Shown here piece after piece: positions 1-6,219 of a DNA stretch of 64,000 nucleotides. Each line of letters starts with the position of its first letter. Position 1 is the first letter of the stretch. The stretch is from Nitrospirales bacterium (GTDB taxonomy: Bacteria; Nitrospirota; Nitrospiria; Nitrospirales; UBA8639). Position numbers and translations under genes: made by a program. Below the pieces are notes generated by a model. It did not search any database. It worked only from the letters and a program-made list of their open reading frames with translations, and had not been told where the DNA came from. The stretch is taken from assembly GCA_029261295.1 (NCBI GenBank), contig JAJDBP010000002.1:434001-498000 (forward strand), given 5' to 3'.

Positions 1-1
1 G

Positions 2-586
2 TTACGGCCCCTCGGCTTTTCTGTGCAGCAAGCCAAAGACGGGCAAGAATGCCTCCAGCAAGTAGCCGAAAGTAAGCCCGATGCGATTTTGATGGACTTG
101 CGTATGCCACGCTTGAATGGGCTAGAAGCTACGCGGCGCATTCGTGCCCTTCCTGAGGGAGGAAGCCTCATAATTTTGGGTGTCTCGGCGAGTTCTTTTG
201 ATCACAATCGGACCGAATGCCTGGATGCAGGAGCTGACGGGTTCTTGTCAAAACCTTTTCGAGTGGGGAAATTGATACGAATGCTCTGCGAGCATCTTCG
301 CCTCGAAGTCATTTATGAGCAACAAAAACCTGCAGCATCTAAGGAGTTTCCTGATGGAGTGATTTCATCGACAGGAATGACTTTACCTCCAGCGGAATGG
401 GTGAAGGAGCTTCAAATGCTTGTGCTCTCGGGGGATATGGCACAAATACTCGATCGTCTTCAGGCGCTTGAGCAAACAGAGCCCACCTATCAGAACTTTG
501 TTGAACGTGTGCGAACATTAGCTCAGCAGTTTCAAATAAAAAAACTGCGACTGTTTCTATCGAGTCTCAAAGGCCCAGACGCATGA
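2..586 (+). CDS. Hybrid sensor kinase or response regulator, C-terminal part (receiver domain), 5' end outside window
   Basis: The reading frame is open from the window edge, so the gene begins upstream; the GTG at 23 falls inside the receiver fold and is not a start. The visible part has the second half of a receiver domain with the phospho-acceptor Asp in a MDLRMP motif and the conserved Lys in SKPF. A roughly 100-residue tail follows, with alpha-helical character and no motif I recognise. Such a tail after a receiver is usual at the end of hybrid histidine kinases, but the kinase domains are not in the window. The stop overlaps the start of the sigma-54 activator by ATGA, so the two are translationally coupled and probably form one phosphorelay. 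Confidence 0.85.
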   Translation, partial: LRPLGFSVQQAKDGQECLQQVAESKPDAILMDLRMPRLNGLEATRRIRALPEGGSLIILGVSASSFDHNRTECLDAGADGFLSKPFRVGKLIRMLCEHLRLEVIYEQQKPAASKEFPDGVISSTGMTLPPAEWVKELQMLVLSGDMAQILDRLQALEQTEPTYQNFVERVRTLAQQFQIKKLRLFLSSLKGPDA

Positions 587-2082
587 CCTCTACTGCTGAT
601 TGCCATCGAACGATTTTAGTTGTTGATGATACTCCGACGAATCTTAGCGTGGTTTCGGCCTTTTTGGAGGAAGCTGGATTCAAAGTCCTTGTAGCGGAAA
701 GTGGGGACGATGCTCGAGAGGTCATCCGCCAGATGCATCCGGACCTCATTTTGTTAGACGTGTTGATGCCCGCACCAAATGGGTTCGAGACATGTCGAGA
801 ATTGAAATCTGATCATGAGACTCAAGACATTCCCATTATTTTTATGACAGCCCTCTCGGATACGGTGGAAAAGGTCAAGGGATTTGAAGTGGGGGGAGTT
901 GATTACATCACCAAACCGTTTCACCAAGAAGAAGTCTTGGCTAGAGTTAAGACTCATCTAGCTCTACGTGAACTCCGCCGGGAGTTGGAAGTGCAGCAAG
1001 CAGGACTCCAAGAGCAAAATCGATTGTTGCAAGCGGAAATTGACGCCCATACCAGGACCAAAAGTACGGTGCAGTATCTCAAGGGTGAGCTAGAGTCAGA
1101 GCAAGTCGGTCGAGGGATGATTGGGCGTAGTCCCATTTTTCGGGAGACACTTGAACAAGTGGCACAGGCCGCAGAGACAGATTGTACAGTCTTGATCATT
1201 GGCGAAACTGGAACTGGAAAAGAGGTGCTCGCTCGGACGCTTCATGAACAAAGTCTGCGTGCCGCTATGCCGATGATTAAAGTTAATTGTGCCGCCATCC
1301 CCAAGGACTTGTTTGAGAGCGAATTTTTTGGACATGAAAAAGGTGCCTTTACTGGCGCTGTTGCGAAACGTGTGGGGCGGTTCGAACTGGCCGATGGGGG
1401 AACGCTCTTTCTGGATGAAATCGGAGAGCTTCCTCTCGATATCCAAGGCAAGCTTCTGCGTGTGCTTCAAGAGCAAGAATTCGAGCGGGTTGGGGGGCAG
1501 ATTACCCAAAAGGTTGATGTTCGAATCATTGCCGCCACAAATTGTGATCTTCAAGAGGACGTGACGCTTAAACGGTTTCGCGAAGATCTCTATTATCGGC
1601 TCAATGTCTTCCCTGTTCGCATTCCCTCCCTTCGTGAACGTCAAGACGATCTTCCCTTGCTTATCGAGTATTTCCTTAAGAAATTTTCGGAGAGGCATCG
1701 CAAGAATGTTGATGCTATGCACGAAGAGAGCATGAGTGATCTTCTGAATTATGGGTGGCCGGGGAATATTCGAGAATTGGAAAATGTGATTGAGCGAGCC
1801 GTGATAGTGAGCAAAGGGCCCATTATCCAGATCGGGAAATGGTTTGATAAGCAACCGACATCTTCGAGTGTTGCCCCCGTAGATGCCACTCCCCCTCGCC
1901 CTACTCCAGAGACCACTGGGTTTATGTCCCTAGAAGATGTGGAACGGCTCCATATACTTCGTGCGCTGGATTCTACGAAGTGGCGTATTTCTGGCGAAAA
2001 AGGGGCGGCACAGCTTCTTGGAGTGAACCGATCTACTTTACGCGGCCGCATGGAGAAACTTGGCATCGTTCGTGAAGAATAA
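583..2082 (+). CDS. NtrC-type sigma-54-dependent response regulator
   Basis: 499 residues in four parts. Residues 10-125 are a receiver domain with probable phospho-Asp59 (LLDVLMP) and Lys in TKPF. A coiled-coil linker covers about 130-185. The AAA+ sigma-54 activation domain has Walker A GETGTGKE at 207-214 and the sigma-54-contacting GAFTGA loop near 254-259. The last 40 residues are a Fis-type helix-turn-helix. It should turn on sigma-54 promoters by ATP hydrolysis after phosphorylation, probably by the hybrid kinase whose end it overlaps. A sigma-54 promoter lies 210 bases downstream, in front of the next receiver gene, making that gene its most likely nearby target. Confidence 0.95.
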   Translation: MTSTADCHRTILVVDDTPTNLSVVSAFLEEAGFKVLVAESGDDAREVIRQMHPDLILLDVLMPAPNGFETCRELKSDHETQDIPIIFMTALSDTVEKVKGFEVGGVDYITKPFHQEEVLARVKTHLALRELRRELEVQQAGLQEQNRLLQAEIDAHTRTKSTVQYLKGELESEQVGRGMIGRSPIFRETLEQVAQAAETDCTVLIIGETGTGKEVLARTLHEQSLRAAMPMIKVNCAAIPKDLFESEFFGHEKGAFTGAVAKRVGRFELADGGTLFLDEIGELPLDIQGKLLRVLQEQEFERVGGQITQKVDVRIIAATNCDLQEDVTLKRFREDLYYRLNVFPVRIPSLRERQDDLPLLIEYFLKKFSERHRKNVDAMHEESMSDLLNYGWPGNIRELENVIERAVIVSKGPIIQIGKWFDKQPTSSSVAPVDATPPRPTPETTGFMSLEDVERLHILRALDSTKWRISGEKGAAQLLGVNRSTLRGRMEKLGIVREE

Positions 2083-2144
2083 TCCTTCCATTCCTGATTA
2101 TCCCTGACCACTCTATTCAAAACCTTCTGGCTCTTTATCGCCAA

Positions 2145-2164
2145 ATTGGCTAAATGTTGCCAAT
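2145..2164 (+). terminator. Possible terminator hairpin after the sigma-54 activator
   Basis: ATTGGC and GCCAAT form a 6-bp stem around an 8-base loop, followed shortly by a run of five T. It lies about 60 bases after the activator stop. The stem is short, so termination may be weak. Confidence 0.4.
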
Positions 2165-2291
2165 TGCCTTTTTGGCTTGACCCTCCTTGATCTCCCGTCT
2201 TCATTGGCTTCGATCAATTCGGAAGACGTATTTCTCATGGTTATATGGGTTTTAGGTATTTGGTCCTATCAGGCGACAAAGAGGCCATCTG

Positions 2292-2307
2292 TGGCATTCA
2301 AGTTGCA
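2292..2307 (+). promoter_or_regulatory. Sigma-54 (-24/-12) promoter
   Basis: TGGCATTCAAGTTGCA has the GG and GC dinucleotides exactly ten bases apart and matches the TGGCAC-N5-TTGCA consensus at nearly every conserved position. It ends 95 bases before the ATG of the receiver-only gene and sits just downstream of a gene for a sigma-54 activator. Activator-binding sites upstream cannot be defined from sequence alone. Confidence 0.65.
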
Positions 2308-2402
2308 ATAATCTTTCTCATGTTCCGAGAGAGATTGGAAAACTTTGACAATCATAAAGTCACCCAGAAAATAGGTCACGGCATCTTTTAGGGAAAGGTC
2401 AC

Positions 2403-2819
2403 ATGGATACACACCTCACCACGTTACTTTTGGTTGATGACACGCCGGATAATCTTCTCGTGCTATCGGATATGTTGACTGATGCTGGTTACCGTGTGCT
2501 TTGTGCGGAAAGCGGGGAAAGGGCTCTAGAGTGTGCGAAACTTGGCCAACCGGATCTCGTTATGGTCGATGTTCGTATGCCTGGGATGGATGGCTTTGAG
2601 ACTTGTCGACGACTCAAGAGTCTGGTCGACATGAAGGAAGCTCCGATACTGTTGACCAGTGCTCACGTGACTGCAGAGGTCTGGAGAGACGCGTTAGCCT
2701 CCGGCGGATCGGATGTACTGACTAAGCCGTTTACGAATTTGGAAGTCTTAACCCGAGTAGATTTGCATCTACAGCTACGGCACTTTCAACGAACCTTGGC
2801 AGCAATCTCATCCTCTTAA
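2403..2819 (+). CDS. Single-domain (receiver-only) response regulator
   Basis: 138 residues, almost all receiver domain: acidic pair in LLVDDTP, probable phospho-Asp56 in MVDVRMP, Thr/Ser in LLTSAH and Lys in TKPF. There is no output domain, so it should work by protein contact or as a phosphate shuttle, like CheY or Spo0F. The start is well placed after AGGTCAC. Its N-terminal half resembles the receiver of the upstream activator (VDDTP-N, CAESG/VAESG, GFETCR), suggesting the two arose by duplication. A sigma-54 promoter precedes it, so transcription is probably under that activator. Confidence 0.9.
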   Translation: MDTHLTTLLLVDDTPDNLLVLSDMLTDAGYRVLCAESGERALECAKLGQPDLVMVDVRMPGMDGFETCRRLKSLVDMKEAPILLTSAHVTAEVWRDALASGGSDVLTKPFTNLEVLTRVDLHLQLRHFQRTLAAISSS

Positions 2820-2888
2820 TCTGTTTTCAAAACCTATCCAGAGTTCTTTGCGACCGAGAATTCAGTTGTCTGTGCTAGAGCTTATGGC

Positions 2889-3278
2889 TTACAACCGCCC
2901 GAGGGCATCTCCGACCCAAACAGCCGAAAGACCCAGAAATACATGGAGAATGATATTGACGGAGGCTTTGAGGATCGCGCCGTCTTTGAGGAGGGCTAGG
3001 GATTCAAATCCAAAGGTGGAATAGGTCGTAAATCCTCCGAGTACTCCAATGAAGAGAAAGATGCGGATATCAGGTCCGAGCAGTGAACGGGTTTCTGTCA
3101 CTCCATGAAGAAGACCGATTAACAGGCATCCGAGTATATTGACCGTGAGGGTTCCAACAGGAAAGCCCAAGACTGGGCTGAATCGATTCAACGCGCCGGC
3201 CATGACGAAACGGCCAATTGAGCCTAGAAATCCGCCAAAGCCAACCCAAAGGAGTTGTGGTAATCCGTATGGTGTCAT
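2889..3278 (-). CDS. crcB: CrcB/Fluc fluoride ion channel
   Basis: 129 residues with four hydrophobic segments, the usual Fluc length. Family signatures are present: GGFLGSIGRF near the N-terminus and GGFTTYSTF in the third segment, which carries the phenylalanine and threonine/serine track for fluoride. Fluc channels are dual-topology dimers in the inner membrane that let fluoride leak out of the cell. I checked upstream for a fluoride riboswitch and did not see its conserved core. Confidence 0.92.
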   Translation of the reverse strand: MTPYGLPQLLWVGFGGFLGSIGRFVMAGALNRFSPVLGFPVGTLTVNILGCLLIGLLHGVTETRSLLGPDIRIFLFIGVLGGFTTYSTFGFESLALLKDGAILKASVNIILHVFLGLSAVWVGDALGRL

Positions 3279-3358
3279 GATGATTTCAATGCTAAAAGAT
3301 TGTCTAGATGCCAGGGGAAGAATGCAAGCGGATGGTTGATTCGATGATCTCTATTCCT

Positions 3359-4171
3359 TCACGCTTTAGATTGGCGTTTTGATGGAGTGGGTTGACGAAT
3401 GGATTGAGCTTTACGACGACTTGCCGACGATGATTTATTGGCTGCCCCATTCATCCAAAGCGCAATGCCCCCTAGCAATCCAGCGACGTTTGAAACGGTG
3501 GTCACATTTGGTGGCAATTCTAATGTGACCTTCTTTGCATTGCCGCCTCCTAGATACAGGCGGTCGTAGTTGATGACGTGATCAAGGGTTTCGATGGCTT
3601 GAGCCAGGCGTTGGTTCCATTTCTTTTTCCCGACCTTCTTGAGTGCGGGGGCTCCTAATTCATCTTCATAGGTTTTCCCTTTTCGAAACGGGTGGTGGGC
3701 TATTTCCAAATTAGGCACCAGCGCTCCATTGATAAAGAGGGCTGTGCCAAATCCCGTACCCAGCGTAATCACAAGTTCGACGCCTTTTCCCTTGATGGCT
3801 CCAAAGCCTTGCACGTCGGCATCGTTCGCCGCGCGAACTGGTTTTTTTAACTGGCGGACAAGTTCTCCCACGAGATTGGTTCCTGGCCATGATTGATCGA
3901 GATTCGGTGCGGTTTTCACTTGCCCTTGCTGAATCACACCAGGAAATCCTACCGAAACCCTATCAAATGTTCCCATTCCTTTGACGAGTTCGGTGATGCC
4001 CGCAAGCACCGCTTTTGGTGTGGACGGTTGTGGTGTGACGATTCTCAGGCGTTCCCCAATCGGTTGTCCTGTTGGATTGAGAAGAATCCCTTTGATTCCC
4101 GACCCTCCAATATCAATAGCAAGAGTGACCAGTTTGGTTATTGTAGAAATGCGTTTTGATGTCGATGCCAT
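3359..4171 (-). CDS. ppgK: Polyphosphate glucokinase, ROK family
   Basis: 270 residues. The N-terminus has the phosphate-binding AIDIGGSGIKG motif of ROK/PPGK kinases, followed by DVQGFGA and LGTGFGTALF typical of PPGK. The enzyme phosphorylates glucose using inorganic polyphosphate or ATP. AAGGAGA lies 8 bases before the ATG. The last 35 residues are basic and Ser-rich (KSSSASRRKAQS), a tail beyond the catalytic fold that could bind polyphosphate; this is inference. A Ppx/GppA-type polyphosphatase lies 36 kb away, so polyphosphate turnover is represented elsewhere in the window. Confidence 0.88.
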   Translation of the reverse strand: MASTSKRISTITKLVTLAIDIGGSGIKGILLNPTGQPIGERLRIVTPQPSTPKAVLAGITELVKGMGTFDRVSVGFPGVIQQGQVKTAPNLDQSWPGTNLVGELVRQLKKPVRAANDADVQGFGAIKGKGVELVITLGTGFGTALFINGALVPNLEIAHHPFRKGKTYEDELGAPALKKVGKKKWNQRLAQAIETLDHVINYDRLYLGGGNAKKVTLELPPNVTTVSNVAGLLGGIALWMNGAANKSSSASRRKAQSIRQPTPSKRQSKA

Positions 4172-4183
4172 GAGTGTTTCTCC

Positions 4184-4798
4184 TTAGCGAGGTGGTTCCT
4201 TGGAGCCCTGTCGGCTGTTATACACCTTTCCGCCTTGTTCGACATATTTCTGTAAGACTTGAGTGGCTTGGAAACGCCCAATATTTTTGGTTACTGTAAT
4301 CCCGCGTTGTTCCAAAGCCGAAGCCCAATCTTTGAGCTTCGGGCCTTCATCAAACCCAATTGCTTCAGCATCGTTTCCCTGAGCTCCACATACCAGATGA
4401 GAAACGCCTGACCAACAAATGGCTCCAAGGCACATGGCACAGGGTTCGCAACTCGTGACCAGCTCATGTGATGGGAGACCAGCGGCCCCTAAATCATGAC
4501 TCCCAAGTAATTGTTGAGCCATTATGATTGCCACAATTTCTGCATGTGCCAGAGAATTCTGAGAAGAGAGCACCAGGTTAACCCCTGGAGCCACGAGTTG
4601 ATGAGTATCGACTCTAAACACTCCTGCCCCAAATGGGCCACCCGTGCCTTCTTCAATATTGTGTTGAGATAGAGTAGTGACTAGGGTCATTCGTGCCTCA
4701 GGGGTAGGGAAGGCAACAGGTTGTGACTTAAGAAATTCAGTTACCCATTGAGGAAGTTCTAGTTGAAATGGTGGGAAGGGGTGGGGGGTGTTTTTCAT
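4184..4798 (-). CDS. Nucleoside/guanine deaminase, CDA fold
   Basis: 204 residues with zinc-site motifs of the cytidine-deaminase superfamily: HAE (zinc His and catalytic Glu) and PCAMC (two zinc Cys). The GDA/TadA-like arrangement and C-terminal region fit guanine or nucleoside deaminases better than TadA, but the substrate cannot be fixed from sequence. The stop is 12 bases before the ppgK start, so the two are probably co-transcribed. No convincing ribosome-binding site precedes the ATG at 4798, so an internal start is possible. Confidence 0.82.
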   Translation of the reverse strand: MKNTPHPFPPFQLELPQWVTEFLKSQPVAFPTPEARMTLVTTLSQHNIEEGTGGPFGAGVFRVDTHQLVAPGVNLVLSSQNSLAHAEIVAIIMAQQLLGSHDLGAAGLPSHELVTSCEPCAMCLGAICWSGVSHLVCGAQGNDAEAIGFDEGPKLKDWASALEQRGITVTKNIGRFQATQVLQKYVEQGGKVYNSRQGSKEPPR

Positions 4799-4952
4799 GA
4801 TAATCTTGATCCAGAGAAAAATGTCCTGGTTCTAATGAATTGGAAAAACCTCGTTTGGAAAAGTTGGTTTTGGTGAGCCCAACGCTCCGACTACCCTTAT
4901 AAAAAAGTGTATCAGCACATTCAGTTTAATAAAAGATTTTTTAAGAGAAGCT

Positions 4953-5255
4953 ATGGCAAGACAATGAGAAGATGAGGTTCTCATTATTATTGGGGCTTCT
5001 GTGGGTGCTGGAGAAGATCTGCCTCTGGCTTTCACTCTTTAATCTCCTAAGTTGGTGTTGGCAGCAAGTGATCGGAGGCGGTTAGAAGCTTGTGCCGAAG
5101 CTTGTGCTTATATTTTTGTGAAGGCGAATACTCAGCGAAGATGTTTAGTGGTGACATCCCTACGAGGGAAATTAGGACGACTGGTGAAATTGTGTTTTCC
5201 TCAGGGCATTGATTGGATGGCTATGAACAGCGCGAAAGAGGCTTATAGAGAGTGA
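4953..5255 (+). pseudogene. Decayed short-chain dehydrogenase (SDR) gene
   Basis: One frame from ATG 4953 reads as an SDR N-terminus: a beta strand then IIGASVGAG (family TGxxxGxG), then KLVLAASDRRRLEACA, the usual end of the second strand. It continues as RRCLVVTSLRGKLGRLVK, which resembles the C-terminal part of such enzymes. The frame has stops at 4965 (TGA) and 5040 (TAA), and the whole catalytic middle including the YxxxK region is absent. It is therefore a remnant with nonsense mutations and a large internal deletion. The open part from 5052 alone could be mistaken for a 67-residue gene. It lies between two minus-strand genes. Confidence 0.6.
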
Positions 5256-5280
5256 GTATGCTCACCCTGAGTTGTGAGAG

Positions 5281-6219
5281 TTAGGGTATGGCATAAGAGA
5301 CTCGCTCAAGCGTATGGCCTTTTTCCGTTAATAAAGTTACAAGCCCATCATCGCCAACTAAATGAGCTGCGCCAATGATCACGAGGACGTTTTTATCTTC
5401 CAATAGAAAATTTTCAATTTGAGGGATCCATCGTTTGTTGCGGTTGGTTAGTAGAGAATTATGATACGTCAAATTCTTTGCTTTTTGTTCTTGAATAATA
5501 TGTTCTAATTCCGAAAAATTTCCTTGATGCCAATTTTTCACTAAATGGAGAAATTTTTTCTCACTTTCTTCCGAGTTCGAAACGGTTAGGGTTTCACGAA
5601 GAATTTTGTCCTGCATCTTCAAGGGTAGTTTGTCATCTATGTCGAGCTGATCTTCGATGGTTTCCAGCCCTCCTGTGGGTTTCCCAGCATCTTTTGCTAA
5701 ACGAAAGAAATAATATTCAATCCCCAGGTCTGGTCGGAAATCATTGGTTGATAAAGGACTTCGACCAATAATTTTATTGACCGCCCATGGCTTGAGTTTG
5801 TTAATCGGTTCAAAGTCGAGTCCCATTTGAGCGACACGTTTTTTCAGTAGCTTGAGTGTCTTGGGATGGAGCACTTTTTCAAGAGTGTTCCCGTTTTGAA
5901 GGTAATGATAATTTTCAACATTTTTATTTGGGGTCAATGAAAAGAGTATTTCTGGGTCAATTTCAAATATGACTTTTTGTGAATTGTAATATGAATACGA
6001 AAACGCTCGAGTGAGAGGGTAATATTCTTCAGCCAGTATATGGATTGATCCGAGAAGATAAACGGTGTTGGTGTCGGATTGAATTTTATAAATGAGACTG
6101 TTGTTATACCCTTTTCCAACCACTTGGCTTTGCGTGGTACCAGAAAAGGTTAAAAACATCATGAGAGCAAAGAGTATGCTGAAGGTGTAAGGCCGGCGTG
6201 AAGAATGATAACCGTTCAT
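5281..6219 (-). CDS. TraB/GumN family secreted protein
   Basis: About 312 residues from the ATG at 6219, preceded by AAGGAGAG. A longer frame to 6291 exists, but its extra 24 codons lack signal character. A signal peptide (SILFALMMFLTF...GTTQS) leads into TraB/GumN hallmarks: LLGSIHIL with YPL, GGLETIEDQ, the NRNKRW region, and IGAAHLVGDDGL near the end. The paired GxxH and ET motifs suggest a metal-dependent hydrolase of the Tiki/TraB fold. The protein should act outside the inner membrane; its substrate in bacteria is not known. Confidence 0.85.
   Translation of the reverse strand: MNGYHSSRRPYTFSILFALMMFLTFSGTTQSQVVGKGYNNSLIYKIQSDTNTVYLLGSIHILAEEYYPLTRAFSYSYYNSQKVIFEIDPEILFSLTPNKNVENYHYLQNGNTLEKVLHPKTLKLLKKRVAQMGLDFEPINKLKPWAVNKIIGRSPLSTNDFRPDLGIEYYFFRLAKDAGKPTGGLETIEDQLDIDDKLPLKMQDKILRETLTVSNSEESEKKFLHLVKNWHQGNFSELEHIIQEQKAKNLTYHNSLLTNRNKRWIPQIENFLLEDKNVLVIIGAAHLVGDDGLVTLLTEKGHTLERVSYAIP

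Follow-up and report, generated by a model that had tools for sequence, protein, structure and literature searches.

A candidate sigma-54 regulon joining a lone receiver gene and LCCL-protein genes to an NtrC-type activator in a Nitrospirales bacterium

Introduction

In Rhodobacter sphaeroides, CtrA activates the gene of Osp, a single-domain receiver that has been described as an inhibitor of the hybrid kinase CckA, in a negative feedback loop (PMC9430884). According to the same account, the acidic pair and the lysine are absent from Osp, and the protein works unphosphorylated (PMC9430884). The lone receiver VemR of Xanthomonas is reported to bind the activator FleQ (PMC9923393) and the sigma-54 factor RpoN2 (PMC6637908), and MrrA, also a single-domain regulator, has been described as acting as a hub (PMC5964349).

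The window, that is, the whole stretch of DNA analysed here, comprises 64 kb of contig G000:C2 of a Nitrospirales genome (G000). An initial annotation of the window had proposed a local sigma-54 circuit in which an NtrC-type activator raises the level of a receiver-only regulator encoded next to it. Comparison with related genomes turned this single promoter guess into a defined, predicted regulon with a readable DNA site. The locus is a clean case in which to test whether a sigma-54 pathway controls the transcription of one of its own receiver genes.

Results

Gene order and classification of the activator

The first bases of the window fall inside a kinase gene. The features of the locus, in window coordinates, are:

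2..586, + strand: 3' end of a hybrid histidine kinase gene (whole gene G000:C2:432028-434586, 852 aa)
583..2082, + strand: NtrC-type sigma-54 activator gene (499 aa: receiver, AAA+ domain with GAFTGA, Fis-type HTH)
2128..2162, no strand assigned: putative upstream activator site formed by a tandem pair of TGGC-N8-GCCA dyads (2128-2143 and 2147-2162)
2292..2307, + strand: predicted -24/-12 sigma-54 promoter, TGGCATTCAAGTTGCA, GG and GC 10 nt apart
2403..2819, + strand: lone receiver gene (138 aa; D12, D13, D56, S86, K108; V105 at the aromatic switch position)
2889-3278, strand opposite to the receiver gene: CrcB family gene, next gene downstream

The activator had orthologues at 80% identity in G005 (locus L086), a genome of the same genus as G000, and at 76% identity in G030 (L088); a second activator locus was present in G005 (L087). 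The kinase and activator genes overlapped by 4 bp, and the overlap was identical in L086, L087 and L088. The Pfam domain order of the kinase was PAS-PAS-HisKA-HATPase-REC. Its C-terminal 90 residues or so past the receiver (residues 760-852, window positions ~305-586) were without a Pfam match, and an Hpt histidine motif was absent from this tail on inspection by eye.

The activator combined an intact receiver pocket, an AAA+ domain with GAFTGA and a Fis-type HTH, as expected of NtrC-type (response-regulator EBP) activators. Against the named NCBIfam equivalogs, the 25 listed of the 117 models matched were all under cut-off (AtoC: 403 of the 714 bits required), and by these models the activator is assignable to the general NtrC class only, not to a named type (AtoC, NtrC, ZraR). 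The genome had one RpoN match, on another contig than the receiver locus, and the sigma-54 activator domain was matched 25 times (22 strong, 3 weak). A search of window positions 1-6000 against Rfam gave no match up to E 1. The activator and receiver genes were on one strand, 320 bp apart. The CrcB family gene was on the other strand, so the receiver transcript should carry the receiver alone.

The -24/-12 promoter

The initial annotation had noted a -24/-12 match between the activator and receiver genes, and this was confirmed: the element at 2292-2307 was exact, and it was kept in L086 and L088. Nowhere else than at TGGCATTCAAGTTGCA did the window match TGGCAYNNNNNTTGCW exactly. Exact matches averaged 0.20 per window shuffle, with at least one in 17 of 100 shuffles. 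With 1 mismatch allowed, the window had 4 matches against a shuffle mean of 4.57, which is chance level, and the weight therefore rests on the exact match only. Across the 4.06-Mb genome, the strict pattern had 27 exact matches versus 2 for the reversed pattern, so most of the 27 are probably real sites. The element had the GG and GC of a sigma-54 promoter at the proper distance within TGGCAY-N5-TTGCW, in a genome with rpoN.

Transcription from a sigma-54 promoter begins about 12 nt past the GC. The start is expected by position near 2318, about 85 nt ahead of the receiver gene's ATG (2403); the interval 2292-2310, earlier proposed for 5'-end mapping, is the promoter box itself. Six of the 27 strict boxes fell within 2 kb of an activator domain, so sigma-54 circuits of this local kind are commonplace in G000. 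Two further loci (L043, G000:C14:19506; L050, G000:C29:109457) encoded secreted-looking proteins that resemble each other (246 and 243 aa). An exact -24/-12 box stood about 80 nt before each gene, with the paired site described below absent (scores 11 and 8); they are perhaps another sigma-54 regulon.

The paired dyad site and its conservation

The dyad was found by a motif search over eight hand-chosen upstream regions. At 2128-2162 two dyads lay with their starts 19 bp apart. Single TGGC-N8-GCCA dyads averaged 1.01 in shuffles, at least two being present in 27 of 100, so that two dyads alone are unremarkable; the exact pair at the given spacing occurred once in the window versus 0 of 100 window shuffles. 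Sites were scored over the 16 positions of TGGY-N8-RCCA-N3-TGGY-N8-RCCA, a pattern designed on these very sites, and the shuffles of this score test each region and are no independent discovery of the site. Before the receiver gene, the score was 16 of 16 in the window, 15 in G005 (L086) and 16 in G030 (L088), scores that 0 of 2000 shuffles equalled in any of the three regions, and the distance from site start to -24 box was 164, 166 and 166 bp, respectively. Activator sites usually lie about 80-200 bp upstream of the -24 box. The other strict sigma-54 promoters of the genome (n = 23) had site scores of 8-12.

In the three-way alignment of the window, L086 and L088, invariant columns made up 17 of the 35 positions of the site and 14 of the 17 positions of the box (2291-2307), compared with 32 of 128 in the intervening stretch, 27 of 95 in the leader, 7 of 28 ahead of the site and 23 of 36 where the coding part begins. 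By eye, the aligned relatives had no counterpart of a sigma-70-like match present at 2345-2372. In L086, the activator and receiver genes were separated by two open frames of opposite orientation, and the box and site remained with the receiver.

Because tandem site and box are kept in order, sequence and spacing, a receiver gene with its own sigma-54 promoter, served by a bound activator, is a reading to which alternatives are hard to find, the link between receiver and site resting on three close genomes. A -24/-12 match by chance, with the receiver gene transcribed as part of the activator operon or by way of a sigma-70 promoter, would agree with the shared strand, the 320-bp gap and the sigma-70-like match, but it would leave the 14 invariant box columns in three genomes, one of them with the receiver gene not adjoining the activator gene, to coincidence, and was judged most improbable. 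The earlier proposal that the activator raises the receiver through sigma-54 was thus well supported by comparison, with tandem site and box kept in all three genomes.

With 1 mismatch allowed, the paired site was no commoner in the three activator-bearing genomes (counts 5, 8 and 9) than in nine others (2-16), counts covering both strands, with sites matching on both strands counted twice. With 0 mismatches, it was found at 3, 1 and 2 distinct places in the activator-bearing genomes, at 1 place in G007 and 1 in G033, and at none in the seven others. Five of the six exact sites in activator-bearing genomes had an exact -24/-12 box starting 122-166 bp past the site start, and the sixth (G005:C236) only a 15-of-16 box match, at 211. 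The exact site in G007 was without such a box, and that in G033 had only a 14-of-16 match 30 bp on. The dyads have the position, the conservation and the sharing between promoters expected of an upstream activator site, and co-occurrence and position support them as the putative site of this activator.

The TGGC dyads might instead be a terminator of the kinase-activator operon. A terminator-like stem was called at 2144-2165, in a region whose shuffles average 1.3 such calls; however, G030 had no five-T run directly after the dyads, and dyads with an exact box downstream also stood ahead of receiver and LCCL genes located elsewhere than behind the activator gene. The terminator reading was rejected as highly improbable.

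LCCL genes and the wider regulon

Three paralogous double-LCCL genes with secreted-looking products lay upstream of the window (G000:C2:419205-428700; L055, L026). Their promoters were 8.5-17 kb upstream of the receiver promoter, and each gene had its own exact -24/-12 box, ending 88 nt and 198 nt before the start codon in two cases and 13 or 76 nt before it in the third, depending on the start chosen. The sites, recovered with a search pattern built from these same three LCCL sites, started 122, 130 and 122 bp before the box. One of the three (LCCL2) had one clear dyad only, with a pair score of 12 of 16 that was reached by 101 of 2000 shuffles. In G030, two LCCL genes both had an exact box, with site scores of 15 and 16. 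Site and exact box thus stood ahead of all five LCCL genes in two activator-bearing genomes (G000 and G030), the full pair scoring at least 14 of 16 for four of the five. These and the other predicted targets were called secreted-looking on inspection of their N-termini by eye. One of the G030 LCCL genes was preceded by a paired site (L176:1501-1535) that is a near-perfect 35-bp palindrome, TGGTGATATGCAGCCAAATTGGCTGCATATCACCA.

Within the family, 2 of 48 genomes had LCCL domains, and both belonged to the 3 of 48 in which the activator was present at an identity of at least 76%. The third of these, G005, had no LCCL match; there, site (15 of 16) and exact box preceded a different unit, with an RTX-repeat protein about 0.4 kb on as the nearest identified product. 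At phylum level, 11 of 395 genomes had LCCL, and 2 of the 395 drawn had the activator at E 1e-160, G005 not being among those matches.

The nine LCCL genes outside G000 and G030, one per genome in other Nitrospirota, had site scores of 10-12 of 16 and box scores of 7-9 of 11, two of these loci (L212, L216) having less than 400 bp of upstream sequence. The close activator was absent from these nine genomes, where the best match (E 1.9e-111) covered the AAA/HTH part only, and listed matches reaching into the receiver were at most 45% identical. Since genomes without the close activator have their LCCL genes without site and box, the LCCL-site link follows the activator, as a co-occurrence. Taken with the receiver promoter, these comparisons make it highly probable that the activator drives both the receiver gene and the LCCL genes via sigma-54. 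The circuit is also wider than the local one first annotated, the same sites standing before genes of secreted-looking proteins.

The second, more distant locus of G005 (L087) had an activator 60% identical to that of the window and a lone receiver 48% identical over 105 residues. The receiver gene came after a gene for a 155-aa protein; the box of this unit was a near match, and its site was weak, scoring 13 of 16, with 13 of 2000 shuffles as good. A gene for a 173-aa secreted-looking protein had an exact box, and the site was absent from it (11 of 16; 581 of 2000 shuffles as good). This locus (L087:3196-7000) also encoded a 208-aa protein with, by eye, an STN-type-like domain.

Elsewhere, no lone receiver was found downstream of the activator in the available stretch of L089 (G028), L090 (G031), L091 (Competibacteraceae), L092-L095 or L129. 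Short lone receivers were encoded upstream of the activator in three loci (L093, L101, L107) and, in L156, between a pair of activator-like genes, all in other phyla. To judge by these loci, lone receivers are not rare as neighbours of activators of this kind.

Residues and descent of the lone receiver

One receiver domain was the only match of the lone receiver (2403-2819) above a curated cut-off. The protein had the D/D/D/T-S/K residues of a single-domain response regulator and no output domain, and its best match by sequence among solved structures was the first receiver of PleD. The pocket (D12, D13, D56, S86, K108) was present in all four lone receivers compared. An inhibitor of the Osp class was considered and set aside, since D12, D13 and K108 are present.

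Position 105, which we take to be the aromatic switch of CheY-like proteins, was V, V, V and C in the four lone receivers versus Y or F in all 28 other receivers compared (12 of same-subfamily activators, 6 of kinases, one of a further G028 protein and 9 of other G000 activators). The aromatic switch residue normally couples phosphorylation to the output face. Its absence suggests that the lone receiver does not signal in the classical way, in which phosphorylation acts on the output face. An intact pocket without the aromatic switch fits a regulon-induced competitor for phosphate, or a feedback element that would bind the kinase. With the acidic pocket and the lysine in place, the lone receiver may compete for the phosphate or pass it on, as the initial annotation had suggested.

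Lone receivers often act as forward effectors. The product of the receiver gene may accordingly be an effector of the regulon that, once phosphorylated, binds another target such as an enzyme, motility or secretion machinery, or another kinase. Such a role would have a precedent in MrrA and would suit both the intact pocket and joint production with secreted-looking proteins, but all four lone receivers have V or C for the aromatic coupling residue, and no shared partner gene was seen beside the receiver in an unsystematic comparison in which L086 ends 178 bp past the receiver gene. The effector role was considered rather unlikely, though it retains some weight.

The resemblance noted earlier between the lone receiver and the receiver of the activator was borne out at 47% identity over 126 residues, yet the two did not group together in the tree, at moderate support. 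Lone receivers of the three close genomes formed their own clade (99/99), and the 12 activator receivers, with the receiver of one adjacent G028 gene, were on one side of a branch (86/93, moderate) with the lone receivers outside. The lone receiver of L087 was unplaced, standing beside kinase receivers (84/84) on a long branch. Tree and alignment had the first 17 residues trimmed from the G030 and L087 lone receivers. A recent duplication of the activator's receiver was unsupported, as the lone receivers neither nest in nor pair with the activator receivers.

The lone receiver might also contact the activator or RpoN directly, in a mixed oligomer or in the manner of VemR, with positive or negative effect and with no phosphate drawn from the kinase. 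The 47% identity and the binding of FleQ and RpoN2 by VemR speak for such contact; the separate clades (99/99 versus 86/93), however, do not imply shared dimer surfaces, and direct contact was judged unlikely.

Discussion

Taken as a whole, the observations are best explained by a regulon of kinase, activator and sigma-54 that includes a receiver limiting the response, a reading we hold to be somewhat favoured. The hybrid kinase would phosphorylate the receiver of the co-transcribed NtrC-type activator. The activated activator oligomer would bind the tandem TGGY-N8-RCCA dyads and, with RpoN, open the -24/-12 promoters before the double-LCCL genes (two or three) and the lone receiver gene; in one relative, other secreted-looking proteins would be targets instead of LCCL proteins. 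The lone receiver would act back on the kinase by taking phosphate or by occupying its docking surface, and the response would be limited in proportion to the activity of the regulon.

The sense of the feedback is the more tentative part of this scheme. Negative feedback through phosphate or kinase binding has a chance approaching even. Its narrower form, in which the activator makes, from a promoter built like those of its LCCL targets, a dedicated receiver that is phosphorylatable, has lost the output switch and draws phosphate back, so that the system limits itself on a scale set by regulon output, is offered as one possibility, a little more guardedly still.

Three points are newer: the receiver gene is a conserved target with its own predicted promoter, the paired site has been defined, and a predicted LCCL regulon would link bacterial LCCL-domain proteins to a regulator. 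Literature searches, mostly outside subscription journals, found no earlier report of a regulator tied to bacterial LCCL-domain proteins, and no published description of this receiver and LCCL regulon was recognised in the literature searched.

Ordinary NtrC-type regulons share with this locus a kinase with a REC-AAA-HTH regulator, upstream dyads and -24/-12 promoters near regulator genes, whereas here the predicted targets include a receiver and LCCL proteins, and TGGY-N8-RCCA is present twice with a 19-bp step. The secreted-looking targets agree with sigma-54 as a controller of the cell exterior, the view taken in a general genome survey (PMC3162934), in the available part of which a regulon such as this one is absent. 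Like VemR in Xanthomonas, the present receiver is a lone receiver tied to a sigma-54 system; unlike it, the receiver gene would itself be a sigma-54 target of the activator, a relation to FleQ not described for VemR in the available text of PMC9923393. As in the published account of Osp, the receiver gene is a probable target of the regulator of its pathway, with a regulator site conserved across species. The Osp gene, however, is described with a CtrA site and -35/-10 elements, whereas sigma-54 is predicted here; and the present receiver keeps the acidic pair and the lysine, while its contact with a kinase, reported in the case of Osp, is proposed here from the intact pocket and the missing switch residue.
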